A stretch of 64,000 nucleotides of DNA from Sphingobacteriales bacterium UTBCD1 (GTDB lineage: Bacteria; Bacteroidota; Bacteroidia; Chitinophagales; Chitinophagaceae), in assembly GCA_002066995.1 (NCBI GenBank), contig MWTC01000039.1:1-64000 (forward strand), written 5' to 3'. The translations under genes were made by a program, and so were the position numbers. Positions 13,432 through 43,109 of this stretch are shown here, piece by piece; within the stretch, counting starts at the first letter, position 1, and the number at the start of each line of letters is the position of its first letter. The notes beneath the pieces are model-generated. The model made no database searches. It was not told the DNA's origin and saw only the letters and a program-made list of their open reading frames with translations.

Positions 13432-15417
13432 TCAGGCAACCTGTTCTTCATGTATAATCCTTAAATTTTCCAGGTGATTTACATTAATGCCTGCTTTGTC
13501 AACGATAAACATTTTATAGAGCAACTGAGTAGAAATTATTGCCGTCAATGCCATCTGGTCCACTTCTGAAACGTCTTTTTGTTTATTCATTTTTGCAATC
13601 AAAGCATTTACCTTAAGCGGATTAAACAAGCCAAAAGAATTTATATTAACTGAAGATAAAACATCCAGCACATATTCTGATCTGCTGAAGTTTAAAAAAC
13701 TTTCCGGCACAGGCGACCGGTAAGGCTGTTTCACTCTTTTTCTTATGGATTCAGGGATCAGGCCTTCACTCATTTTCTTCAGCAAATATTTTTCATTCAG
13801 GCCGTTTAACTTCAGATTGTCCGGGAGTTTATTACAAAATTCAATAACCCGGTGGTCGAGGAAAGGGTATCTCCCTTCTACAGAATTTGCCATCAACATC
13901 CTGTCGCCTTGTGAAGAGAGCAGGTAACCCGACATGAAAATAGTTGATTCGAGGTACTGAGCTTTTCCCAGGGTACTCCAGTCAGTTATATTTGCAGGAA
14001 GCTTAGAGTATAATAAATTCAAAGGATCATAACCAGTAAGTTTTTGTAAAATATCATCAGCAAAATAAATTTTATTCCTGGATGTATTGTGCCATCTTAA
14101 TAAATGAGAATAAAAGGGATTACTTGTGTCATTAAGTTTATACCCAAAAAATAATTTAAGCGCAGTAGGGCCGGCATCTCTTATTATGGGCAGATAAGAA
14201 TACAGTTTCGATAATAATTTAGGCCTGAATGTTGATGCAGGCTGGTTGGCCCAGAATTGCCTGATCTTTGCTTCCTTAAAAATATCATACCCTGCGAGAT
14301 ACTCATCAGCACCTTCACCTGTAATCACTACCTTAATATTGCTCTCTCTTACTTTTTCAGACAACAAATACATGGGTGTAGGTGATGTTCGTAATGTAGG
14401 AAACTCGGTGTGCCAGATTGTCTTTTCGAAATAATTACTTATATCATACTGGGTACATTTAAAAGCATGGTGCCTGGTATTTAAATAACCTGCGGCTTCC
14501 ATTTGGTATTTCGTTTCATCATAAACTGCATCTTCAAACCCGATTGAGAAAGTATTCAGAACTTCAGGATTTATTTCATGAATCAAAGATGTAGTGACCG
14601 TTGAATCCAGGCCACCACTTAAGTAAGCCCCCACAGGTACATCAGCTCTTAACCTTATTTTTACAGCATCTTTCAGCAATTCTTTATATTCCGACAGGAT
14701 GTCTGTTATGCTTCTTGATGCTGAATCTTTTTGTATTGAAAAATCTGCTTCCCAATATTTTTCAATTTGGGTTCCTGCATCATTTATCCGCATGAAACAA
14801 CCAGGAGGTAATTGAAAAATGTTTTCAAAAGGGGTATGGGGGGCTATCGTGGTCCAGAAAGTAAAAACCTGAGCCAGGCTTTCGTGGTTCAGCCCTCTTT
14901 TTGTAAACCCTGATGCCAACAACCCTTTTATTTCAGAACAAAAAGAAAACACGTTTTTATCATATGAATAAAATAATGGGAGTATCCCTACCCTGTCACG
15001 GGCCAGGAAGCATTCTTTGTTTTTTTTATCCCAAATGCAAAAAGAGAACTGTCCATTAAAATATTGAAGACACTCAGCTCCGTACAGGGCATACATCTGC
15101 ACCACCACTTCTGTATCACAATGAGTTTTCAATCGAATTCCTTTTTTCAGAATATGCTCCCGCAGTTCAGTATAATTAAATATTTCGCCATTATAAACAA
15201 TCCAGAAATTTCCCGAATCATCTGATAAAGGTTGCTGACCCGATTTCAAATCTATTATACTCAGACGCACGTTCCCTATTGCGATATTTTCGCCCAGGTA
15301 CATACCACTTTCATCCGGACCTCTGTGCCTGATGAGAGCCAGCATTTTTTTCACCTTATGTTCAAGCGGAACATCAGAGTATGGGGATATATTAAATATC
15401 CCTGCAATTCCACACAT
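13432..15417 (-). CDS. Asparagine synthase-like glutamine amidotransferase (AsnB family), copy 1
   Basis: 661 residues. Met removal would expose Cys2 (MCGIAGIF), the class II glutaminase nucleophile, and RLSIIDL and YNGEIFNY complete the glutaminase pocket. The synthase half has the PP-loop SGGLDS at 267-272 and the ITGEGADE motif. Such proteins use ATP and glutamine to convert a carboxylate to a carboxamide. The acyl carrier protein lies only 13 bp upstream, and an AMP-ligase and NadE-like enzyme lie nearby, so the substrate is more likely a carrier-bound or sugar-bound carboxylate than free aspartate. A second AsnB-like protein lies at 30140-32017. The substrate is inferred. Confidence 0.88.
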   Translation of the reverse strand: MCGIAGIFNISPYSDVPLEHKVKKMLALIRHRGPDESGMYLGENIAIGNVRLSIIDLKSGQQPLSDDSGNFWIVYNGEIFNYTELREHILKKGIRLKTHCDTEVVVQMYALYGAECLQYFNGQFSFCIWDKKNKECFLARDRVGILPLFYSYDKNVFSFCSEIKGLLASGFTKRGLNHESLAQVFTFWTTIAPHTPFENIFQLPPGCFMRINDAGTQIEKYWEADFSIQKDSASRSITDILSEYKELLKDAVKIRLRADVPVGAYLSGGLDSTVTTSLIHEINPEVLNTFSIGFEDAVYDETKYQMEAAGYLNTRHHAFKCTQYDISNYFEKTIWHTEFPTLRTSPTPMYLLSEKVRESNIKVVITGEGADEYLAGYDIFKEAKIRQFWANQPASTFRPKLLSKLYSYLPIIRDAGPTALKLFFGYKLNDTSNPFYSHLLRWHNTSRNKIYFADDILQKLTGYDPLNLLYSKLPANITDWSTLGKAQYLESTIFMSGYLLSSQGDRMLMANSVEGRYPFLDHRVIEFCNKLPDNLKLNGLNEKYLLKKMSEGLIPESIRKRVKQPYRSPVPESFLNFSRSEYVLDVLSSVNINSFGLFNPLKVNALIAKMNKQKDVSEVDQMALTAIISTQLLYKMFIVDKAGINVNHLENLRIIHEEQVA

Positions 15418-15430
15418 TCTTGCAGAAAAA

Positions 15431-15706
15431 TTAACCGAGTTTCTTTGTTATGTAATCTGCCATGGCATTCAACGACTCGAAATTGGTATCGAGCAATTCA
15501 GAATCTTTTGCTTTTATTGAAAAATTTTCTTCAATAAAATTGATAAGGAGTATAAAACCCATTGAATCAAAAAGCCCCTCTTCAAATATTTTCGAATCAT
15601 CCTTTACCTGGTCTGGTGAAGCATATGTCTCATCAACGATATACTTTCTGATTTTGTTTTTAATGTCGGCTTTAACCTCGTTTGTAAGTACTGTTTTAGT
15701 TTCCAT
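15431..15706 (-). CDS. Acyl carrier protein (phosphopantetheine carrier, ACP/DltC-like)
   Basis: 91-residue helical carrier with the attachment motif FDSMGF; Ser48 should carry 4'-phosphopantetheine. It is acidic around helix II (EEGLFDSM, INFIEENF), as carriers are. It is separated by 210 bp from the PrmC-like gene and by 13 bp from the AsnB-like gene, both in the same direction. With the AMP-ligase (17241-18827) it makes a loading pair, comparable in type to DltA/DltC or to the ligase and carrier of exosortase-associated EPS loci. It is not in a fatty-acid-synthesis context. The bound acyl or aminoacyl group is unknown. Confidence 0.88.
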   Translation of the reverse strand: METKTVLTNEVKADIKNKIRKYIVDETYASPDQVKDDSKIFEEGLFDSMGFILLINFIEENFSIKAKDSELLDTNFESLNAMADYITKKLG

Positions 15707-15916
15707 AAATTTAAATAATGGGTAAATGGTTATAAAATGATTAGTTAACTATAAAGAAAAATTAAGCGTTCAGTCACAGAATTACCTGACGTGATAATAC
15801 TGCAACCTAATTATAAAAAACTTTTTTTATTAAGAGTATTTTTCAACAATTTATAAACTTCCCTGCACACTTTTTTAGTAGTTTTCCACAACTTTATCGT
15901 AAGAATCACATAAGGA

Positions 15917-16816
15917 TCAGGCCTTTTGAGCCATGATCACCCTGATGTTACCCTGATCGTCTTCAACTGTTTGAAGTTTCCCATATTTATTTATTCGTTC
16001 ACAGAGTTGTATAATGAATTTTCCCTGACCTAATCCTACTTCAAATATTAGCCAACCATTTTTTTCCAAAAACACCGGTGCTTTCTCAATCAACATTTGA
16101 ATAACTTTAAATCCTAACATTCCGCCGTCAAAAGCCAAAGCAGGCTCATGTGCAGCAATTTCAGTATTCATTTTTTTCACCTTTGCGCTTGAAATATACG
16201 GAGGATTGCAGATTATCAGGCTTATCATTTCATAATTTTTCCCGTTTTCAAAAGGAGCGAACATATCACCGCTTTCAAACTGAACCCTGTTATTAAGGTT
16301 AAGATAATGTGAATTATCTTTTGCAAGACTTACCGCATCTTCAGATAAATCCGAGGCATAAAGCTTAACTTTTTGATTTAAATGAGCAACTGCCAACCCA
16401 AGATTTCCTGATCCGCAACACATATCCATTATATGAATGGTATCCTTTCCTTTAGCCAACTCAAAAGATAACTCTAATGCTTTTTTCCCTAATATCTCTG
16501 TTTCCTTTCTCGGTATCAACGCTCGTCCATCAGTCAAAAATTCAATTCCGAGGAAATTCTGCCTCCCGACTAAATGAGCCAAAGGAATATCTTTCGTTCT
16601 TCTTTCCAGCAAATCAACTAAATGTTTTATCATATTTTCATCCAGCGGCGATAGCGGATATTTCATCGCTTCTGCTGCAGACATAGGATGCCCTGATGCA
16701 TATTGCCAGCAAGCTTTCAACGTAGAATCAATAGTCTCATCGGGTTTATCCTCCAAAAAACGAAACTTTGGGCCAAATTGAGTTTTGAGTTCATTAAAAA
16801 GCTTCAGTACATCCAT
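15917..16816 (-). CDS. PrmC/HemK-family N5-glutamine methyltransferase-like protein in the EPS cassette
   Basis: 299 residues with the complete PrmC layout: an N-terminal helical domain, the linker LVGRQNFLGIEF and LIPRKETEIL (about 82-109), SAM motif MCCGSGNLG (132-140), and the substrate motif NPPY (204-207) that binds a planar amide in this family. PrmC methylates the side-chain amide nitrogen of glutamine in release factors. Its location between an acyl carrier protein and an NTF2-like/AMP-ligase pair suggests a cassette-specific paralog acting on a carboxamide, but it could be the housekeeping prmC. The SAM loop MCCGSGN differs from the usual DLGTGSG, which favours a specialised paralog. 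Confidence 0.82.
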   Translation of the reverse strand: MDVLKLFNELKTQFGPKFRFLEDKPDETIDSTLKACWQYASGHPMSAAEAMKYPLSPLDENMIKHLVDLLERRTKDIPLAHLVGRQNFLGIEFLTDGRALIPRKETEILGKKALELSFELAKGKDTIHIMDMCCGSGNLGLAVAHLNQKVKLYASDLSEDAVSLAKDNSHYLNLNNRVQFESGDMFAPFENGKNYEMISLIICNPPYISSAKVKKMNTEIAAHEPALAFDGGMLGFKVIQMLIEKAPVFLEKNGWLIFEVGLGQGKFIIQLCERINKYGKLQTVEDDQGNIRVIMAQKA

Positions 16817-16840
16817 TTGATCAATCGCTAATTTTACAGG

Positions 16841-17260
16841 TTACAGCATACGCATTTCAACCATTGCGGTTCCTACCTGAATTGCAGTTTTAGAATAAGT
16901 AATTTTTTTGATTACTTTTCCTTCTTTTAATTGCATGATATCCACCCCTCTTCTTATTTCCTTTTCATTTCTAAATTTAGTTTCAATAGATGGCCATTCA
17001 AGCCTCCATTGAAAGGTCAGCTTCTGTTGCTGTTCATCACAAAAAAAATCTTCAAGAAAAAATTTGAAATTGCCATGCCGGATAAACCACGGTAACCATG
17101 CCATTTTAAGAGCTTCCTTTCCGGTAATCAGGTTACCATCCCAGTTCTCAAACAAGATATCCTCATGTATAAAATCCAGAACTCCTGACAGGTTATGTTC
17201 ATTCCAGGCAGTCAGCCATCTGCTAAAATGCTTAATTATTTCAGCTTTCGTGAGAATCAT
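16841..17260 (-). CDS. NTF2/SnoaL-like small protein
   Basis: 139 residues with the cone-like NTF2 pattern: an N-terminal helix with WLTAWNEHNLSGVLDFIHEDILFENW, then beta strands (FFLEDFFCDEQQQKLTFQWRLEW region) ending in IRRGVDIMQLKEGKVIKKITY. This is the usual SnoaL-like arrangement of cytosolic ligand-binding or small-molecule enzymes (isomerases, cyclases, dehydratases). The gene overlaps the end of the AMP-ligase by 20 bp and is followed by the PrmC-like gene after 24 bp, so it should act on the same activated acyl compound. The catalytic residues cannot be assigned. Confidence 0.75.
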   Translation of the reverse strand: MILTKAEIIKHFSRWLTAWNEHNLSGVLDFIHEDILFENWDGNLITGKEALKMAWLPWFIRHGNFKFFLEDFFCDEQQQKLTFQWRLEWPSIETKFRNEKEIRRGVDIMQLKEGKVIKKITYSKTAIQVGTAMVEMRML

Positions 17261-18827
17261 TGAGAAATTGCTTTTTAAGTTCTTTTTTATCTATTTTTCC
17301 ATTGGAGCTTTTGGGCATTTCATGAATTAAAATTATTTTTCCTGGAACCATAAATGATTCCAAATGGGCCATACAAGTACGGTGTATTATTTTTTCATTA
17401 AGTGTTGAACCGTCTTTCAATGTTACAAAAGCTACAATAGATTCACCCATTACTTTATCGGGAGTGCCAAATACTACTGCTTCTCTCACTCCATCAATTG
17501 CATAAATAACATTTTCTATCTCGATAGGGCTCACTTTTTCTCCTCTTGTTTTTATTATATCATCATTCCTGCCCAGGAAATACAAAAACCCTTCTTCATC
17601 CATCTTAAACCAATCATTTGAGCATAATATTCTTTCCCCCGGCAACTTGCCTGGCTTCAGCATTTCATTACTGAGATCTTCACGGTTCAGATATCCCAGC
17701 ATTACATGAGGCCCGCGAATATGCAAAATTCCTGGTTCACCCGGAGCTACAGGTTCACCTCCAGGACTTAATAAAAAAACTTCAGTGCCCGGAATAGCTT
17801 TGCCAACCGATTCGGGTTTTATATCTATCAATTCCGGTTCAAGATAACAGACTCTTTTACATTCTGTCAATCCATACATTCTGAAAATTAACGCATTAGG
17901 AAATATATTTTTTAAATCAGGCGTAAATTCTGCCGGAAGAGCTGCAGCAGTATTCGTCACTTTTTCAATATAATCAAATGAAGTATTATTATTTTTTGCA
18001 TAAGCAATCAGCATGGCATAAATGGTAGGAACGCCGGGAAAAACTGTTGGTTTATGCTTCTGCATATTTTCGAGAATAGATGTAATAAATATAAAAGATT
18101 GTTCAATAATTAAAGTGCCCCCGGTAGTAATGGCCATTAGCAATTGATACAGCCCATAATCAAAGGCAAGGGGCAGAAGCAACATGATCCGGTCATGCTC
18201 CGTTAACCTCAAATATTGTATTAAGCTCCAGGACGCAAAAACCATAGATTGATGAGTCATCATCACACCTTTTGGAAAACCAGTACTTCCTGAAGTGTAT
18301 ATTAAAGCAGCAAGATCATTGGGGATTACATTTGGCATTACTATGCCTGAAATTATTTTGGATGTTGCATTTTCAAAATCAACTACCCGGTGCTTTAAAG
18401 CCGAATTCATCATAGCCGGATCACCGGTAATAATGATCTCCAGAAGCCCGGGTGTTTCTTCTGCAGCCGTTAAGAACTCCTTTTTTAACAATGCAGTAGT
18501 AATGAGGATTTTTGCACTACTATCATTCAGAATAAATTTTAATTTATCTGATTTCGTCTGGGGGTTGATTACCAGAAAAACAGCTCCTGCAAGTGTGATG
18601 CCATAAATAGAAACAACACTTGACCATGAATTTTCAAGATAAATAGCAACCCGGTCCCCTTTTTTTACTCCGGACTTTATCAGATGATGAGCCAGGTTTT
18701 CTGCTTTTGTTTTAAGGTGAATATAGGAGTAGGATTCTCCTTTTACTATGATAGCAGTTTTAGTGGGATGATTCCTGGCAGAGTTCAATAGAGCCTCACC
18801 AAGTAATCGCTGTGGAATAGTTTGCAT
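17241..18827 (-). CDS. AMP-forming acyl/aminoacyl ligase (ANL superfamily, DltA or acyl-CoA-ligase type)
   Basis: 528 residues carrying the ANL core motifs: YTSGSTGFPKG (177-187, phosphate loop), YGLTE (318-322), GRNDDIIKTRG (419-429, hinge) and the C-terminal catalytic lysine in SSNGKID (Lys511). It activates a carboxylic or amino acid as the adenylate and passes it to a thiol. The YGLTECKRV signature resembles the ligases of EPS-linked carrier systems rather than long-chain fatty acyl-CoA synthetases. It sits with an acyl carrier protein, an MBOAT and an SGNH protein, the same protein types as DltA-C-B-D. The acid it activates is unknown. Confidence 0.88.
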   Translation of the reverse strand: MQTIPQRLLGEALLNSARNHPTKTAIIVKGESYSYIHLKTKAENLAHHLIKSGVKKGDRVAIYLENSWSSVVSIYGITLAGAVFLVINPQTKSDKLKFILNDSSAKILITTALLKKEFLTAAEETPGLLEIIITGDPAMMNSALKHRVVDFENATSKIISGIVMPNVIPNDLAALIYTSGSTGFPKGVMMTHQSMVFASWSLIQYLRLTEHDRIMLLLPLAFDYGLYQLLMAITTGGTLIIEQSFIFITSILENMQKHKPTVFPGVPTIYAMLIAYAKNNNTSFDYIEKVTNTAAALPAEFTPDLKNIFPNALIFRMYGLTECKRVCYLEPELIDIKPESVGKAIPGTEVFLLSPGGEPVAPGEPGILHIRGPHVMLGYLNREDLSNEMLKPGKLPGERILCSNDWFKMDEEGFLYFLGRNDDIIKTRGEKVSPIEIENVIYAIDGVREAVVFGTPDKVMGESIVAFVTLKDGSTLNEKIIHRTCMAHLESFMVPGKIILIHEMPKSSNGKIDKKELKKQFLNDSHES

Positions 18828-18908
18828 TCAATTAAAATATTTTGGAACCTGTTAACCGGAATTTCATTTTACATATCTCATTTAATTCAATATCTGAATT
18901 AAACAATA

Positions 18909-19898
18909 CTAATAATCTTTAATAGGGAGCATCCGTAAATATTCGGTAGTCTTTTGTTTTCTTATAAAGCCTTTATAAATAGATTGTATTTCATCTTCTG
19001 TCTTACCCATGACTTTGCCCACTTCTGCAGGGCTATAATCATTTTCAAATCCATACCAAATAAGGTCCATTTCCTTAAACGGAAGTTGAAAAAAGAATTC
19101 TTCCTGTGTTTGTTCTGCCGAATAAGTGTCTGATGTAGGGGTACGTTCAATAATTTCTTTTGGGATATCCAGGTAATCAGCCAGCTGGTAAACCTGCGTT
19201 TTGTATAAGTTTACTATGGGCATTACATCGGCACCGCCATCACCATGTTTTACAAAAAAGCCTTGTTCATGTTCATGCTTATTTGGTGTACCAATCACGG
19301 CATAATACCTGCACTCCGCATGATAATAAAGCATAGACATGCGAAAACGTTGTTTGAAATTTGAAGCAGCTACTACCTGAAGGTATTCCTTAGGCGGCAA
19401 TAGTTTGCTTTTCACTGACCCGTCTTTGTTTATTATACTGATAGAAAACACAGGCGGGAGATTATGGCTTATTCCCTGTGGATTCACACCAATCTTCATG
19501 GTATGAACAGAGGGATCATATTCGGGAAATATATTTGAAACTGCTTCATCTCTCCTCCGGTAACATCCGACACCCCGCAATGCTTCCGATAGATTTTCTT
19601 CAATAGCCTGAACTCCCAGTTGCCTCGATAATTTCAAAGCCAGTTCTTTGCTTTCATTACTTGAATCTTTCTCGGGCAGCATAAGAGCAACCACTTTATC
19701 AGGCCCAAGAGCCCTGACTGTCAGTGCCAGCGAAACAGAGGAATCAATACCTCCGCTAATTCCGATCACAGCTCCTTTTCGTTTTAATGTGGCCAAGACA
19801 TCACTTTTCAATTTATTAATAATCGAATCAGTTTTAGCCTGTATATCATCAAAAATCAGGATGTCTTTTGAAAAATGTTTTTTTACATCAGCGCTCAT
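18909..19898 (-). CDS. NadE-like ATP pyrophosphatase (ammonia-dependent NAD synthase family), divergent
   Basis: 329 residues. The PP-loop SGGIDSS (48-54), NFKQRFRM (180-187), GTPNKHEHEQG and KHGDGGADVMPI are NadE family features. Two deviations stand out: an extra segment of roughly 60 residues (about 110-170) between the PP-loop half and the RFRM helix, and EEFFFQLPFKEMD where NadE enzymes usually have a DE-LG-Y-EID segment. NadE adenylates a carboxylate and amidates it with ammonia. In this cassette it may amidate another carboxylate, with the AsnB-like enzyme as a second amidotransferase. A housekeeping NAD synthase role remains possible. Confidence 0.75.
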   Translation of the reverse strand: MSADVKKHFSKDILIFDDIQAKTDSIINKLKSDVLATLKRKGAVIGISGGIDSSVSLALTVRALGPDKVVALMLPEKDSSNESKELALKLSRQLGVQAIEENLSEALRGVGCYRRRDEAVSNIFPEYDPSVHTMKIGVNPQGISHNLPPVFSISIINKDGSVKSKLLPPKEYLQVVAASNFKQRFRMSMLYYHAECRYYAVIGTPNKHEHEQGFFVKHGDGGADVMPIVNLYKTQVYQLADYLDIPKEIIERTPTSDTYSAEQTQEEFFFQLPFKEMDLIWYGFENDYSPAEVGKVMGKTEDEIQSIYKGFIRKQKTTEYLRMLPIKDY

Positions 19899-19984
19899 TG
19901 TTGATTTGCTTAATTATTAAATAAAATATTTGTTTATCATTAATTCCGGCCTATCGTATGAAAACGTAACAGATGAGATTCAAG

Positions 19985-20929
19985 TCACTGCTTCTGCAAA
20001 ATTTTCCTGATTACCAATTCAGAATAAATGTTTGCTCCATTCCCATTTAAATGATTCACATCATGAAACAAATCCCCGTGATGTAAAAAGAATGTATCAG
20101 TTGAGTAATTAAAAAAGGGGACATTAAACTCTTTTGAAATATGTTTGACAATTTCTATCGATGAATCAACATATTTTTCCACTTTGAATTTTGGGGACAA
20201 GCATATATATAAGTAAATATTTCTTTGAATGCACTCTTTAACAAATGATTCAAAAATATTGATTTTGGTACTATCCAACGGGTACTTCTTAAAAACTGTA
20301 TCTGTAGTTACCGGTCCTTTCCATGTATTCTGTAAAGGCACATATCCGTTTTGGTCTTTTATGGTTATTCTTTCCTTGTTAAAATCAGCATTCCCAACAC
20401 AAATAGTAAATATCAGGGAATTGTAGGGGTATATTTTTGATAAGAGCTTAATATTTTCAAAAGGGCTTTTTAATTTGACTATGTCCCTTACTTCAGGATG
20501 ATTCTCGTAATAAGGTAATAACGAAGTAACCCTGTCATAGCTATCCTGGTTCGTTATAAACTCCTGCTCATTTATATCCAGGATAATAATTTTAGGGGAA
20601 TATCTTTTAAATACGCCTTTTAAAATCGCATAGGAATACAGAAGCGTATTGCCATCCCTGCCGGTATTATAGCACGGTAAATGAAATGCTTTTTCAAATA
20701 AATCCGGGATATAATGGTGGTTGGCGGTGGAAGATCCAAATATCAGGATATCCGCACGGGTGCTGTCCAGAGCATAAGTTGTCCTGTAAAGTGAACCTGA
20801 ATCCTGCTTAAAATACAAATATTTTAAGAGATTGCCAATGCCAAAATCCAAAACGATCAAAAGGAAAATAAATATAATCAGCTTTACAAGAAAAGTTGGC
20901 TTCTTTTTGGATTTAATGGTAGTATCCAT
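19985..20929 (-). CDS. Membrane-anchored SGNH/DltD- or AlgJ-like acyltransferase partner
   Basis: 314 residues with a single N-terminal membrane helix (about 15-35) after a lysine-rich cytosolic tail, so the rest is periplasmic. SGNH-like blocks are visible: IFGSSTANH with Ser66 or Ser67 as nucleophile, the YNTGRDGNT block, and a C-terminal DVNHLNGNG with Asp290 and His293 in the DxxH arrangement. Partner proteins of this type (DltD, AlgJ, AlgX) complete acyl transfer to extracytoplasmic polymers. It follows the MBOAT gene after 18 bp, the expected pairing. The natural acyl group and acceptor are inferred from context only. Confidence 0.78.
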   Translation of the reverse strand: MDTTIKSKKKPTFLVKLIIFIFLLIVLDFGIGNLLKYLYFKQDSGSLYRTTYALDSTRADILIFGSSTANHHYIPDLFEKAFHLPCYNTGRDGNTLLYSYAILKGVFKRYSPKIIILDINEQEFITNQDSYDRVTSLLPYYENHPEVRDIVKLKSPFENIKLLSKIYPYNSLIFTICVGNADFNKERITIKDQNGYVPLQNTWKGPVTTDTVFKKYPLDSTKINIFESFVKECIQRNIYLYICLSPKFKVEKYVDSSIEIVKHISKEFNVPFFNYSTDTFFLHHGDLFHDVNHLNGNGANIYSELVIRKILQKQ

Positions 20930-20947
20930 AATATCATAATTACTGAA

Positions 20948-22375
20948 TCAGAAAGCTAAATATATAAACTGCCCTCCATCAAAAACGCCGGCCAGCATAA
21001 TATAAATTAATAACAAAGCATACGAAACTTGCTGAACGATCCAATTTTTATTTGAAAATAAATTAAACCGGAAAATTTTAGATTCTTTCTGGATATCATA
21101 CAGCATCATTATCATACAGCCTATCAATATAAAAAATAATGTAGAGGGTGTATCATAAAACAAACCGCCCGGGTGGGTATAAATTGCTTTTATTATCGAA
21201 CCGGCACTACTGAACGAATCTGTTCTGAATATAATCAGGCAAAAACTGACATAGAGAAACATTATCAATATACTCAGGTTATTATAAATTACAGTAGGAA
21301 CAGATCTGGCAAGTTTTTTTCGAAATTTTCTTGTCGCATATTCATACATTAGCGCTACAGCCTGCAAGAGACCAAATAATAAATAATTCCATGTGGAACC
21401 ATGCCAAAATCCTATAATTAAAAAACTTAAAGTCAAAGAATAAAAAACGCCCAGTATACCCCATGATCTTTTTTTGAAAGCAATTGGAGTAAAAACATAA
21501 TCGTTCACCCATGAGGAGAGCGAAATGTGCCAGCGACGCCAAAAATCTCCCATATTTTTCGCCAGAAAGGGTCTTTTAAAATTTTCAATCAGGTTGTATC
21601 CAAACAAACGTGCAACCCCGATAGCTATATCAGTATATCCTGAAAAATCAGCATACACCTGGAAGGAATATAACAAAGTAGCAAAAAGAATAGTAATACC
21701 GCTTTGCTGATCCAGTGTAGACATTACTGCAGTTTGGTACATTGCAATACGATCAGCTACAACCAGCTTTTTAAACAATCCCCAGGCAATTCTTTTTCCA
21801 CCTTCTACAATATTATCGTTTTCAAAATAAATATTTTTAGCAAGTTGGGGTAACAGGTTTCCAGCCCGTTCTATTGGCCCCACGAGGATCTTTGGAAAGA
21901 ATAAGATAAACAAGCTGAAACGTGGGAAATCCCTTTCTGCCTTTTCATGTTTCCAATAAATATCAACCAGGTAACCGATAAACTGAAATATATAATACGA
22001 TAAGCCCAGCGGTAACAGAATATCCGAATAGGGAAAATTAAATCCCAGATGAAATACCGAAAGAAGCTTTACCAGATTTGCCCCGAGAAAATTCCAATAT
22101 TTAAAAAAAATCAGCGTCCCCAGGTTAATGGATATACCGAGCACCAGATAGCCTTTACGAGCTTTCTCTTCAACAGACAGATCCAGTTTTAGTCCAATTA
22201 AATAATTCGATAAAATCAGTCCTGCAAGCAGAAGGAAATAAACTGGTCCTGCATAAATATAAAAAAAGGCACTGACAGCAATAAGAAAATAGTTCCTGAA
22301 TTTTACCGGTACTAAATAATAAGCCAATAGCGTCGCTGTTAAAAACAGAAAAAATATTATTGAAGTGAATAACAT
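20948..22375 (-). CDS. MBOAT family O-acyltransferase (AlgI/DltB-like)
   Basis: 475-residue polytopic membrane protein with about ten helices. The MBOAT core is present: DFWRRWHISLSSWV starting at 277, and IIGFWHGSTWNY with the catalytic His325. The C-terminal FDGGQFIYLAF resembles the AlgI ending. MBOATs move an acyl group from an activated cytosolic donor across the membrane to a partner protein or polymer. The SGNH protein is immediately downstream. AlgI relatives normally use acetyl groups, whereas DltB uses a carrier-bound D-alanine; the ACP and AMP-ligase genes nearby make the second mode worth considering. Confidence 0.9.
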   Translation of the reverse strand: MLFTSIIFFLFLTATLLAYYLVPVKFRNYFLIAVSAFFYIYAGPVYFLLLAGLILSNYLIGLKLDLSVEEKARKGYLVLGISINLGTLIFFKYWNFLGANLVKLLSVFHLGFNFPYSDILLPLGLSYYIFQFIGYLVDIYWKHEKAERDFPRFSLFILFFPKILVGPIERAGNLLPQLAKNIYFENDNIVEGGKRIAWGLFKKLVVADRIAMYQTAVMSTLDQQSGITILFATLLYSFQVYADFSGYTDIAIGVARLFGYNLIENFKRPFLAKNMGDFWRRWHISLSSWVNDYVFTPIAFKKRSWGILGVFYSLTLSFLIIGFWHGSTWNYLLFGLLQAVALMYEYATRKFRKKLARSVPTVIYNNLSILIMFLYVSFCLIIFRTDSFSSAGSIIKAIYTHPGGLFYDTPSTLFFILIGCMIMMLYDIQKESKIFRFNLFSNKNWIVQQVSYALLLIYIMLAGVFDGGQFIYLAF

Positions 22376-22536: not shown

Positions 22537-23778
22537 TTATCTAAAATCATCCAGGTTTAATTTCTGAATTGCCCTGATATGTTTCCCGCCTGAAGTCTTT
22601 TCAAAATCATCGACTACCTGAACCTTAATTTCCATTTGACCGAAAAAAAAGGAGTTAAATTCTTCCAGTATATTTTTCCTGTCCACTTCTGAAAATTTTT
22701 CATTGACTTTTACTCTAAATATCAATACGCCCACTGTGTCCTGGAAGTATTGGGCTGACAGAATATTTTCCATTACCCCTCTTCCAGCAGCAATAATGCA
22801 GGGCAAAAGTTCCCTGTTTTTATTCACAATAAATTCGTTTGTTCTGCCTATTATTCCAATTATATTCCCCTTTCCATCGACCTGTACAAAATCCCCGGTA
22901 CGATACCGTACTAAGGGCATAGCTTTATTATTAATTTGCGTACCCACAATTTCTTTAATGCTATATTTATCATTAGTCAAACCAGTATCCATAAATTCAA
23001 CCTTGCTATAGGACTCATCAAACTGATAATACCCATCATTAATAGATATTGCCAAAGCCGCATGTTCTGTTTGTCCATAACGATCAATCAATGTAGCCTG
23101 CGGAAATAACTCCATAATCTCTTTTTTCACTATTGTCAATAACACTTCAGAACTGGAAAGTATGCCTTTAATACCAGGAATCCCCAAATTACCTTCTTCG
23201 ACAATTTCTTTTAAATATTTACAAAATATTCGGAAAGAAGAAGGATAAACATGTAAACAATTAACTTTAAACTTATTTATCAGGTTAATATATTCCAAAA
23301 CATTTTGTTTTGATAATTGATAAGAAGATAATAGCAAATGCCCGTATTTAAACTCATATATTCCTGAAGCAGGTTTATTACCCCGTAATACAGCAATTCT
23401 CAAATTCTTACCAATTAAAGAAAAAGCATCATTAACATAAGCTTCTTCTTTAATCACTTCATTCACTGTCTTATAAAAGTTTAAAGTATTTCCTGATGTT
23501 CCACCTGTTGTCTTTTTAAATAAATATTTCCGGCTTATTTTATCCGAAATAAATTCCTCTTCATTTCCCGCTATATCAGATTTTCGAATGCACGGATAGT
23601 TATTTATTTTATCTTTTTTATACCCTTTTTTCCTGTAAAAGGGCACTTTTTCAATAACCCTATATATATCATTATCATTACTGATATGCTTCTTGCGTTT
23701 TATCCTCCTTTTATAATATAAATATTGAGGTGTAAAATGAATAATTTTCGCCAGCCAGTATTTTTTCCAGTAATTCAT
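22537..23778 (-). CDS. CapK/PaaK-like adenylate-forming enzyme, copy 1 of a tandem pair
   Basis: 413 residues of the phenylacetate-CoA ligase/CapK family, a branch of the ANL superfamily. It shows the phosphate loop KKTTGGTSGN near residue 88, the RYGQTE aromatic motif near 237, and YRTGDFVQVDG followed by GIIGRTNEF at the hinge, so the adenylation machinery looks complete. It is similar throughout to the next gene (about 60% by eye), with both starting MNYWKKY. CapK-type proteins are common among glycosyltransferases in capsule loci, but their substrates are mostly unknown. It may activate an acid used to decorate the polymer. Confidence 0.82.
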   Translation of the reverse strand: MNYWKKYWLAKIIHFTPQYLYYKRRIKRKKHISNDNDIYRVIEKVPFYRKKGYKKDKINNYPCIRKSDIAGNEEEFISDKISRKYLFKKTTGGTSGNTLNFYKTVNEVIKEEAYVNDAFSLIGKNLRIAVLRGNKPASGIYEFKYGHLLLSSYQLSKQNVLEYINLINKFKVNCLHVYPSSFRIFCKYLKEIVEEGNLGIPGIKGILSSSEVLLTIVKKEIMELFPQATLIDRYGQTEHAALAISINDGYYQFDESYSKVEFMDTGLTNDKYSIKEIVGTQINNKAMPLVRYRTGDFVQVDGKGNIIGIIGRTNEFIVNKNRELLPCIIAAGRGVMENILSAQYFQDTVGVLIFRVKVNEKFSEVDRKNILEEFNSFFFGQMEIKVQVVDDFEKTSGGKHIRAIQKLNLDDFR

Positions 23779-23867
23779 CTGTTTTGTTCAATTACCAGGA
23801 AAAAAATCAACCGGCTGCAAAATGAATTCACTCCCATAATAATTGTATCAAAATCTCATTAAATCTT

Positions 23868-25112
23868 TCACGCTATTTCCATATAATTCAAGTTCAGTTT
23901 TTGAATTGCCCTCACATGTTTACCATTCTTTGTTTTTTCAAAATCCTGGACTACCTGAACTTGAATTTTCATCAAACCCTGATATATTTCATTTAAGTCC
24001 TCGCGGATATATTTGATATCAGCTTCGCCAAATTTGTCATTCACTTTTACCCTGTAAACCAATTCGCCTGCCGTATCCTGGTAGAATTGTGAAGAAATGA
24101 CATTCTTCAGCGTATGCCCTCTCCAAACAACGTTACATGGCTGCATTTCATTTTTACTATTCAATACAAAATCATTTGTTCTTCCTATAATGCTCACTAT
24201 ATTATCATTTTCATCCACCTCAACAAAGTCCCCGGTCCTGTATCTAAGCAAAGGCATGCCTTTATTGTTTATATTTGTACCGGTAATTTCTTTTATTTTG
24301 TTATCGCCATTCATCATTCCGGTATCAACAAGCTCTACATAACTAAATACGTTATAAAACCGGTAATACTCCTTATTAACTGATATTGCAAATGCGACGA
24401 GTTCGGTCTGCCCATATTGATCAATTAAAGTGGCATCCGGAAAAAGCTCCATAATCTCATCCTTCACACCGGGAGTGAGTATTTCAGAACTTGAAAATAT
24501 TCCTTTAATTTTCGGAAGCTCAACATTTTGCTCTTTAAGAATTTCTTTCAAATATTTACAGAAAATGTGAATAGCAGAAGGATAAACATGCAGGCAATTA
24601 ATTTTGTATTTCTTCATCAATGTTAAGTACTCCAATACTGTTTCCTTTTTCAATTGATAAGAGGATAACAGGAGGTGTTTGAATTTGTACTCATGATTAC
24701 CCGAGGCAGGCCTATTACCCCGCAAAACAGCAATTCTCAAATTGGACCCGATTAATGAAAATACATAACTGATAAAAGCCTCTTCCCTTATTACTGCAAT
24801 CAGCGTCTTATAAAAAGTGAGATAATTTCCGGAAGTTCCTCCTGTGGTTTTCTTAATTAAAAAGGGTTTCCAGACTTTATTTGAAATAAATTGTTCCTCC
24901 TTCCCAATAATCTCAGATTTCCTGATAAATGGATAGCTTTCAATTTTACCAGGCATATAACCCATTTTTATGTAATAAGGTACATGCTTAATAATGTTAC
25001 TTATACTATTATCATTTAAAAGTAGCTGACGATTAATTCTTCGCCTATAATAATAAAACTGAGGTGTAAGCCGGATAATTCTTTTTACCAAATATTTCTT
25101 CCAATAATTCAT
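23868..25112 (-). CDS. CapK/PaaK-like adenylate-forming enzyme, copy 2 of a tandem pair
   Basis: 414 residues with KKTTGGTSGNYLTFYK, DQYGQTELVAFA, and RYRTGDFVEVDENDN followed by SIIGRTNDF. These match the CapK/PaaK adenylation core and the hinge, as in its neighbour. Sequence similarity along the whole length and adjacency (89 bp gap) argue for a local duplication followed by divergence; gaps are few and near the N-terminus. The proximity to the MBOAT/SGNH pair suggests a role in activating an acyl group. The substrate is unrecognised, and one copy could have lost activity although its motifs are intact. Confidence 0.82.
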   Translation of the reverse strand: MNYWKKYLVKRIIRLTPQFYYYRRRINRQLLLNDNSISNIIKHVPYYIKMGYMPGKIESYPFIRKSEIIGKEEQFISNKVWKPFLIKKTTGGTSGNYLTFYKTLIAVIREEAFISYVFSLIGSNLRIAVLRGNRPASGNHEYKFKHLLLSSYQLKKETVLEYLTLMKKYKINCLHVYPSAIHIFCKYLKEILKEQNVELPKIKGIFSSSEILTPGVKDEIMELFPDATLIDQYGQTELVAFAISVNKEYYRFYNVFSYVELVDTGMMNGDNKIKEITGTNINNKGMPLLRYRTGDFVEVDENDNIVSIIGRTNDFVLNSKNEMQPCNVVWRGHTLKNVISSQFYQDTAGELVYRVKVNDKFGEADIKYIREDLNEIYQGLMKIQVQVVQDFEKTKNGKHVRAIQKLNLNYMEIA

Positions 25113-42557: not shown

Positions 42558-43109
42558 TTATTTAGCTGCATGTAACGGGTAATGCATTTCTATTTCGGTT
42601 GCTCCTGAATGCCGTAAGACCTCTACATTTGAAGATTCCACCTCTGCATACATCAGGTATCCTAATGAAGGAAGTGCCACCTTCACTGTTTTATTCTTTA
42701 AGGATAATACCTGGCCTTCCATTTCCATCAGCGGCCCACCCAGGATACGCACCCGGTCATTGACACTGATCGGTGTCTTTTGAAGCTGAATGTTCACATG
42801 CTCATTCAAGAATCTTTTTATAACCTCGATCTCCTCATCACGGATAACTGCCGGCCTGCCCAGCCAGTAAACGAGATTAATCACACCATGTGCCTGTTTC
42901 AGGGAACTCAGTTCCCTTTCTGCAACTCTTACAAAAACATAAGAAGTGAACAGCGGCTCATGTACAATTTTTTTACGGTCACTCCACTGGCGTACCACTT
43001 TATTTATCGGGCAGTAACATTCCAGCTTTTTCCGGATCAGGTTCTCTGCTACTTTTTTCTCCCATCGCGGCCTTGTGTACACAGCATACCATTTTTTATT
43101 CTCGCTCAT
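42558..43109 (-). CDS. UpxY-type NusG paralog (transcription antiterminator)
   Basis: 183 residues with an N-terminal NGN domain: KKWYAVYTRPRWEKKVAENL, YCPINKVVRQWSDRKK, EPLFTSYVFVRV. A C-terminal KOW-like part follows (SVNDRVRILGGPLMEMEGQVLSLKNKTVKVALPSLGYLMYAEV). Specialised NusG paralogs of this kind in Bacteroidota bind RNA polymerase and prevent premature termination in their own polysaccharide operon, often through a 5' leader. Here it is the third gene, not the first, so its target leader could lie upstream of wza (46.5 kb) or in the 233 bp gap before it. Confidence 0.9.
   Translation of the reverse strand: MSENKKWYAVYTRPRWEKKVAENLIRKKLECYCPINKVVRQWSDRKKIVHEPLFTSYVFVRVAERELSSLKQAHGVINLVYWLGRPAVIRDEEIEVIKRFLNEHVNIQLQKTPISVNDRVRILGGPLMEMEGQVLSLKNKTVKVALPSLGYLMYAEVESSNVEVLRHSGATEIEMHYPLHAAK

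Follow-up and report, generated by a model that had tools for sequence, protein, structure and literature searches.

The locus considered here raises the question of whether four genes that resemble the Dlt system work together on the exopolysaccharide of a Gram-negative bacterium. It lies in a 64,000-nucleotide stretch, referred to as the window (contig MWTC01000039.1, positions 1 to 64,000, assembly GCA_002066995.1), from Sphingobacteriales bacterium UTBCD1. A sequence-only reading of the minus strand between positions 15431 and 22375 had taken an AMP-forming ligase, a carrier protein, a membrane-bound O-acyltransferase (MBOAT), and an anchored SGNH protein, which are the protein classes of DltA, DltC, DltB, and DltD, for one Dlt-like acyl-transfer cassette. 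All four open reading frames are intact on the minus strand at the coordinates it gave, with Ser48 of the carrier in a DSMG motif, and the exopolysaccharide setting it described is borne out by Wza- and Wzc-type export proteins, a sugar-phosphate transferase, and several glycosyltransferases around the genes. The grouping itself has to be redrawn: the conserved core consists of the carrier, the ligase, an AsnB-like amidotransferase, and a NadE-like amide synthetase, mostly without an MBOAT, and the reading had passed over the two amide-forming enzymes (AsnB-like and NadE-like) as well as a SnoaL-like and a PrmC-like protein.

The NadE-like protein, used as the query against 396 Bacteroidota genomes, was found in 13 of them, and in nearly all of the 12 genomes other than that of the window the carrier, AsnB-like, and ligase genes adjoin the NadE-like gene. 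A NadE-like profile run against 85,000 species genomes yielded at least 581 confirmed relatives, the best 80 of which were read, and synteny was counted in the 43 homologous loci flanked on each side by 4.5 kb or more. The AsnB-like gene is present in 42 of these loci, the carrier gene in 42, the ligase gene in 40, and all three together in 39, where the whole unit lies on one strand without exception. As controls, we used 40 loci around sugar-phosphate transferases of Bacteroidota, and neither the NadE-like protein nor the ligase occurs in any of these polysaccharide loci (0/40). Given this synteny (39/43) and the empty controls, carrier, ligase, AsnB-like, and NadE-like form a natural unit, called the cassette below.

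The computed range of the cassette spans Bacteroidota, Chloroflexota, Acidobacteriota, Ignavibacteriota, and Cyanobacteria, and export genes, glycosyltransferases, and sugar-phosphate transferases repeatedly adjoin it in the relatives. The core is present, for example, in Gelidibacter japonicus, Winogradskyella psychrotolerans, and Marinilabilia salmonicolor. Since the gene order repeats in distant genomes, the clustering is not a matter of chance. The distribution is patchy, as searches within the same order with the ligase (E < 1e-100, 299 genomes) and with the NadE-like protein returned the window alone. Many of the relatives come from metagenome bins, and some of the taxonomic assignments seem incorrect; the loci L040 (labeled "Chlorobiota") and L077 ("Eubacteriaceae") group inside Bacteroidota in a quick NadE tree, which served for grouping only. 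We found no description of carrier, ligase, AsnB-like, and NadE-like genes in polysaccharide loci in the open-access literature.

The NadE-like gene (18909 to 19898, minus strand) encodes a core enzyme without a glutaminase domain, assigned by Pfam PF02540, the NCBI NAD(+) synthase model NF002048, and synteny. Its predicted structure matches NH3-dependent NAD synthetases, with which it shares the fold and the SGGxDS ATP-pyrophosphatase motif, whereas it differs from NadE in being a paralogue that is a fixed neighbor of the carrier, the ligase, and the AsnB-like gene. In the HMMER alignment an invariant TQE stands where NAD synthetases have a DE-containing loop. A second NAD synthase domain of the genome is canonical, in a 574-amino-acid frame (G000:C56:109043), which rules out the NadE-like protein as the sole housekeeping NAD synthetase. 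As the protein passes NF002048, this member of the cassette is probably misnamed NAD synthase in many genomes that carry the cassette. The other amide-forming core enzyme, the AsnB-like amidotransferase (13432 to 15417, minus strand; PF00733 and PF13537), combines a Cys2 glutaminase domain with a synthetase domain.

The third enzyme associated with amide chemistry is a PrmC/HemK-like methyltransferase (15917 to 16816, minus strand; TIGR03534, 201.7 bits). PrmC methylates the side-chain amide nitrogen of a glutamine in release factors, and the NPPY motif (residues 204 to 207 in the window) is kept in 10 of 11 PrmC-like homologues. A higher-scoring PrmC is encoded elsewhere in the genome (G000:C26:78540), excluding the PrmC-like protein as the only release-factor methyltransferase. 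Being second copies, the NadE-like and PrmC-like proteins are specialized members of the locus and not housekeeping enzymes. Seven relatives have a ligase resembling that of the window (63% identity or more), and the PrmC-like gene is found in six of them and in three further loci; the accessory SnoaL-like gene (16841 to 17260, minus strand; PF12680), which overlaps the ligase gene by 20 bp, is also present in L058 and L060. The main argument for the chemistry of the product is that two amide-forming enzymes and one amide-methylating enzyme share the cassette, pointing to a product that bears an amide. The PrmC-like enzyme is probably an amide N-methyltransferase, and an N-methyl group on the product is a weaker inference than the amide.

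Some details of the core vary between loci. The AsnB-like gene is broken into two frames in L061, L029, and L040, being either draft-assembly frameshifts or decayed copies. Two Ignavibacteriota loci hold a gene for a protein of about 423 residues within the core cassette (L106:8667-9938 and L112:8669-9937); the L106 product belongs to the class III aminotransferases, which gives a clue to the acid or amine that such a locus makes. In a Chloroflexota locus, a FemAB-like aminoacyltransferase follows NadE (L089:11011-11970), which would fit an aminoacyl product.

The ligase gene (17241 to 18827, minus strand; 528 residues; PF00501 and PF13193, AMP-binding and AMP-binding_C) encodes an AMP-forming acyl or aminoacyl ligase with the signature FDYG...MYGLTECKR and the catalytic Lys511. 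By alignment, this type I ligase (FDYGLYQLLM...MYGLTE(C/T)KR) is shared by the window and most non-Bacteroidota loci, while most Bacteroidota loci have a type II ligase (FYYCYGLSLLHTHLR...MYGQTEATAR) and a few a third type. Asp223 of the window ligase aligns with the adenylation-domain Asp, which in nonribosomal peptide synthetases (NRPSs) binds the amino group of the substrate, and the nearest PDB chains are NRPS adenylation domains and stand-alone aminoacyl-carrier ligases. The conserved Asp and these structural neighbors make an amino acid the best guess for the substrate. Lys324 and Arg325, invariant among type I ligases, might bind a second charged group. The acyl carrier protein (15431 to 15706, minus strand; 91 residues; PF00550, PP-binding) belongs to a family in which 37 of 71 homologues have the DSMG motif.

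The MBOAT gene (20948 to 22375, minus strand; 475 residues; PF03062, 74 bits) has His325 in FWHG and ends in FIYLAF with Tyr472, an instance of the FXYXXF acyl-shuttle motif that is present in all 17 MBOATs checked. In PatA and DltX, the Tyr of this motif is the residue that bears the acyl group (PMC12148441). The PDB matches of the window MBOAT are all DltB, and no AlgI- or PatA-type MBOAT was matched among the solved chains. The SGNH gene (19985 to 20929, minus strand) follows 18 bp downstream and encodes a membrane-anchored protein of 314 residues without a Pfam or NCBIfam match. Its AlphaFold model (pLDDT 91) starts with a helix at residues 2 to 40, and the ten best Foldseek matches in the PDB are all DltD chains (E value of 3.7e-6, TM-scores of 0.3 to 0.4). 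Ser67, Asp290, and His293 are conserved.

On the minus strand, the gene order is PaaK-like, PaaK-like, MBOAT, SGNH, NadE-like, ligase, SnoaL-like, PrmC-like, carrier, and AsnB-like. The gaps from MBOAT to AsnB-like measure 18, 86, 81, -20, 24, 210, and 13 bp, the widest being before the carrier gene, and on account of these distances the run looks co-transcribed. The sequence-only reading had expected its four genes to recur together in related genomes, and they do so in L037 and L058, where MBOAT, SGNH, NadE-like, ligase, PrmC-like, carrier, and AsnB-like are found as in the window, in L058 with a SnoaL-like gene as well. L058 reads, on one strand, second carrier, MBOAT, SGNH, NadE-like, MBOAT, ligase, and PrmC-like, followed by MBOAT, a second SGNH protein, SnoaL-like, a secreted lipoprotein, carrier, and AsnB-like. 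L038 and L053 show part of this synteny only, with MBOAT, SGNH, and NadE-like up to their contig ends and, in L053, a ligase of another type. The MBOAT-SGNH pair adjoins the cassette directly in the window's own subclade. The order MBOAT-SGNH-NadE is conserved in five genomes, and a second MBOAT type lies between the ligase and carrier-AsnB in L040, L068, L071, L076, and L083. An MBOAT search of the 396 Bacteroidota genomes returned, beyond the window, only MBOATs with 35 to 40% identity, most of them without an adjoining carrier gene.

Acyltransferases of other folds also accompany the cassette. Six Chloroflexota loci (L097, L102, L111, L113, L115, and L116) have an OafA-type acyltransferase gene directly after the NadE-like gene, the assignment being based on PF01757 in the single Chloroflexota protein tested, and in 18 of 92 loci a hexapeptide-repeat acyltransferase is no more than three genes away from the core. 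That acyltransferases of more than one fold keep appearing beside the cassette is consistent with the cassette making an acyl group destined for transfer. A family of secreted lipoproteins (L071:14938-15795 and 11 other loci; none in the window) carries FLHHSTG close to the N-terminus and DSHPN close to the C-terminus. It has no Pfam or NCBIfam match; its members resemble SGNH-type hydrolases and seem to be associated with the cassette.

The donor of the MBOAT is a separate matter. The sequence-only reading had named the carrier at 15431, a proposal weakened by a second carrier of about 80 residues that lies directly upstream of the MBOAT-SGNH pair in L033, L037 (832-1095), L038 (7163-7405), L053 (4189-4443), and L058 (101-343). 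Its position suggests that some Gram-negative MBOAT-SGNH pairs use a carrier, and the carrier genes adjoining the pair in relatives argue against an acyl-CoA donor. In the window, the upstream neighbors of the MBOAT are two PaaK/CapK-like adenylate-forming proteins, a tandem pair that is apparently a duplication (22537 to 25112): the member at 23868 to 25112 (minus strand) precedes the other, which is directly upstream of the MBOAT (22537 to 23778, minus strand) and matches NF045666 weakly. L037 also has a PaaK-like gene upstream of its second carrier and MBOAT, and the PaaK-like protein at 22537 to 23778 is a possible separate acid activator for the MBOAT. The window MBOAT may be supplied by the carrier at 15431, or by acyl-CoA perhaps made by the PaaK-like proteins.

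Two further loci show FkbH-like, carrier, MBOAT, and SGNH genes in a row (L033:13669-18384 and L121:1-3930), a possible carrier-using MBOAT-SGNH route that would transfer a glycerate-derived group. L121 came from the MBOAT search alone, and its FkbH-type frame was identified by the DLDNT motif only.

Among known systems, Dlt, which attaches D-alanine to teichoic acids, shares with this locus a ligase, a carrier, an MBOAT, and an anchored SGNH protein in one cluster and the same acyl-shuttle motif. The SGNH fold is nearest to DltD and the MBOAT, among solved structures, nearest to DltB. The ligase is not closest to DltA: the DltA model is missing from its best 25 NCBIfam matches, and no chain named DltA occurs in its 49 PDB matches at E < 1e-40 or in the best 60 of the profile search. 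Membership in the Dlt families also fails for the carrier, with 24.9 bits against DltC model TIGR01688 (cutoff, 52.35) and 29.6 bits against PRK05087 (cutoff, 68), and for the MBOAT, with 165 bits against DltB model TIGR04091 (cutoff, 375). Furthermore, FXYXXF is located on the DltX microprotein in Dlt but is fused to the MBOAT C-terminus here, without a DltX, and the ligase and carrier genes belong with AsnB-like and NadE-like genes in a Gram-negative polysaccharide locus. Judged from these sequence comparisons, the locus would share part of the Dlt mode of action without belonging to Dlt.

The MBOAT with its fused FXYXXF, followed by an SGNH gene, corresponds to the PatA/PatB and AlgI/AlgJ type. 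Those systems use acetyl-CoA and no carrier (PMC12148441), whereas carriers and ligases adjoin the pair here and in relatives. The XrtA/PEP-CTERM exopolysaccharide loci also contain TIGR03098 and TIGR03108 proteins; these are the top NCBIfam model for the ligase and the second best for the AsnB-like protein, with both scores below the cutoffs (447.6 versus 592.35 bits and 410.9 versus 816.9 bits). The cassette differs from them by the NadE-like gene as an additional core member, and an exosortase link is ruled out for this genome, where PF09721 has no match. Another parallel is the glutarimide starter unit, for which a carrier and an AsnB homologue are proposed to make a malonamyl thioester, likewise a carrier-bound amide (PMC7756379). 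There, however, an acyltransferase and not a ligase loads the carrier, the product feeds a polyketide synthase (PKS), and no NadE-like protein is named.

The explanation that we favor, with a little less than even confidence, is a polysaccharide-decoration operon in which an amidated, carrier-borne group is transferred to a polymer, here plausibly by the MBOAT-SGNH pair. From the observed genes, families, synteny, motifs, and folds we infer the substrates, the order of the steps, the link from carrier to MBOAT, and the polymer acceptor as follows. The ligase would adenylate an acid, most likely an amino acid, and load it onto Ser48 of the carrier; the AsnB-like enzyme (with glutamine) and the NadE-like enzyme (with ammonia) would turn its carboxylate or carboxylates into amides, and the PrmC-like enzyme would probably N-methylate an amide. 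A lineage-specific acyltransferase would then take the group off the carrier and put it on the polymer, i.e., the MBOAT and SGNH proteins in the window and its nearest relatives, the OafA-type transferase in Chloroflexota, and possibly a hexapeptide-type transferase elsewhere. The window MBOAT, with His325, would pass the group to its own Tyr472; from there the group would go to Ser67 of the SGNH protein, the enzyme that would acylate the exopolysaccharide. The activation of an acid, its loading on a dedicated carrier, and a transfer step at the surface, which had been proposed from the sequence, fit the data, including the enrichment of MBOATs beside the cassette. Within the Bacteroidota set, 13 of the 51 loci of at least 9 kb have an MBOAT near the cassette versus 1 of the 40 controls (Fisher P = 0.003), a conservative comparison in that the sole MBOAT-bearing control was chosen in the knowledge that its genome encodes MBOATs, and 13 of 16 MBOATs are no more than two genes away from the core, where shuffling gives an expectation of 8.4 (P = 0.01), with both tests counting related loci as independent and ignoring shared ancestry. 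Besides this property of the tests, several observations weigh against the favored explanation. The majority of cassette loci lack a nearby MBOAT, which places the MBOAT outside the core; the L037 and L058 operons hold extra MBOATs that could serve the cassette instead; the second carrier is absent from the window by tblastn and from the genome at E < 0.01, an empty answer that proves little by itself; and, as the ligase types differ, it is not certain that all cassettes make one common product. The MBOAT-SGNH pairs known outside Dlt, moreover, use acyl-CoA (PMC12148441).

Several of these observations would also be expected if two branches shared one operon, the MBOAT-SGNH pair either O-acetylating from acetyl-CoA or transferring an acyl group that the PaaK-like pair would make, and the amide-bearing unit of the cassette being put on a sugar separately by a cytoplasmic or other acyltransferase. 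Such a division, which the sequence-only reading had given as its alternative and which we regard as somewhat less likely than the favored explanation, agrees with the many cassettes without an MBOAT, the hexapeptide acyltransferases close to the core, the two PaaK-like ligases directly adjoining the MBOAT, the window's lack of the MBOAT's usual second carrier, and the acyl-CoA use of non-Dlt pairs, while it leaves the MBOAT enrichment, the second MBOAT type inside the ligase-to-carrier-AsnB interval of five loci, and the MBOAT-SGNH-NadE order kept in five genomes harder to explain. A true Dlt-like aminoacylation, in which the amino acid is transferred unchanged and the AsnB-like and NadE-like enzymes act elsewhere, e.g., on uronic acids of the polymer, would account for the four shared protein classes, the SGNH fold nearest to DltD, the closeness of the MBOAT to DltB among solved structures, and the amino-acid Asp kept in the ligase. 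AsnB homologues do form uronamides in surface polysaccharide loci. We nevertheless consider it improbable: the Dlt cutoffs are missed, and the AsnB-like and NadE-like genes stay with those of the carrier and ligase in MBOAT-less loci and in other phyla, so that they most likely act with these two proteins. Still less probable is a cassette for a small secreted metabolite that lies in a polysaccharide locus by accident, even though a carrier, a ligase, and an AsnB homologue resemble natural-product starter-unit sets such as that of the glutarimides (PMC7756379), as no PKS or NRPS protein was found among the window proteins scanned, the relatives repeatedly lie beside export, glycosyltransferase, and sugar-phosphate transferase genes, and membrane acyltransferases recur.

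If the favored decoration model holds, it predicts an amide (and N-methylamide) decoration of bacterial polysaccharides that has so far not been seen. The complete chain, leading from the amidated and possibly N-methylated group of the widespread cassette over the MBOAT with the fused motif and the SGNH protein to an extracellular polysaccharide, is a doubtful proposition, which, if true, would give Gram-negative bacteria a route resembling Dlt, in which the substituent is chemically new and an MBOAT outside Dlt draws on a carrier. It makes testable the current rule that, among MBOAT-SGNH pathways, only Dlt uses a carrier protein.

The surroundings of the cassette add minor observations. The composition of the 64-kb window has no sharp GC step at the cassette, and the AsnB-like gene is followed on the minus strand by genes for a NAD-dependent epimerase and then a FAD-dependent oxidoreductase. 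Elsewhere in the window, a NusG-like antiterminator (42558 to 43109) stands first in the polysaccharide operon, an arrangement known from UpxY-type capsule loci.

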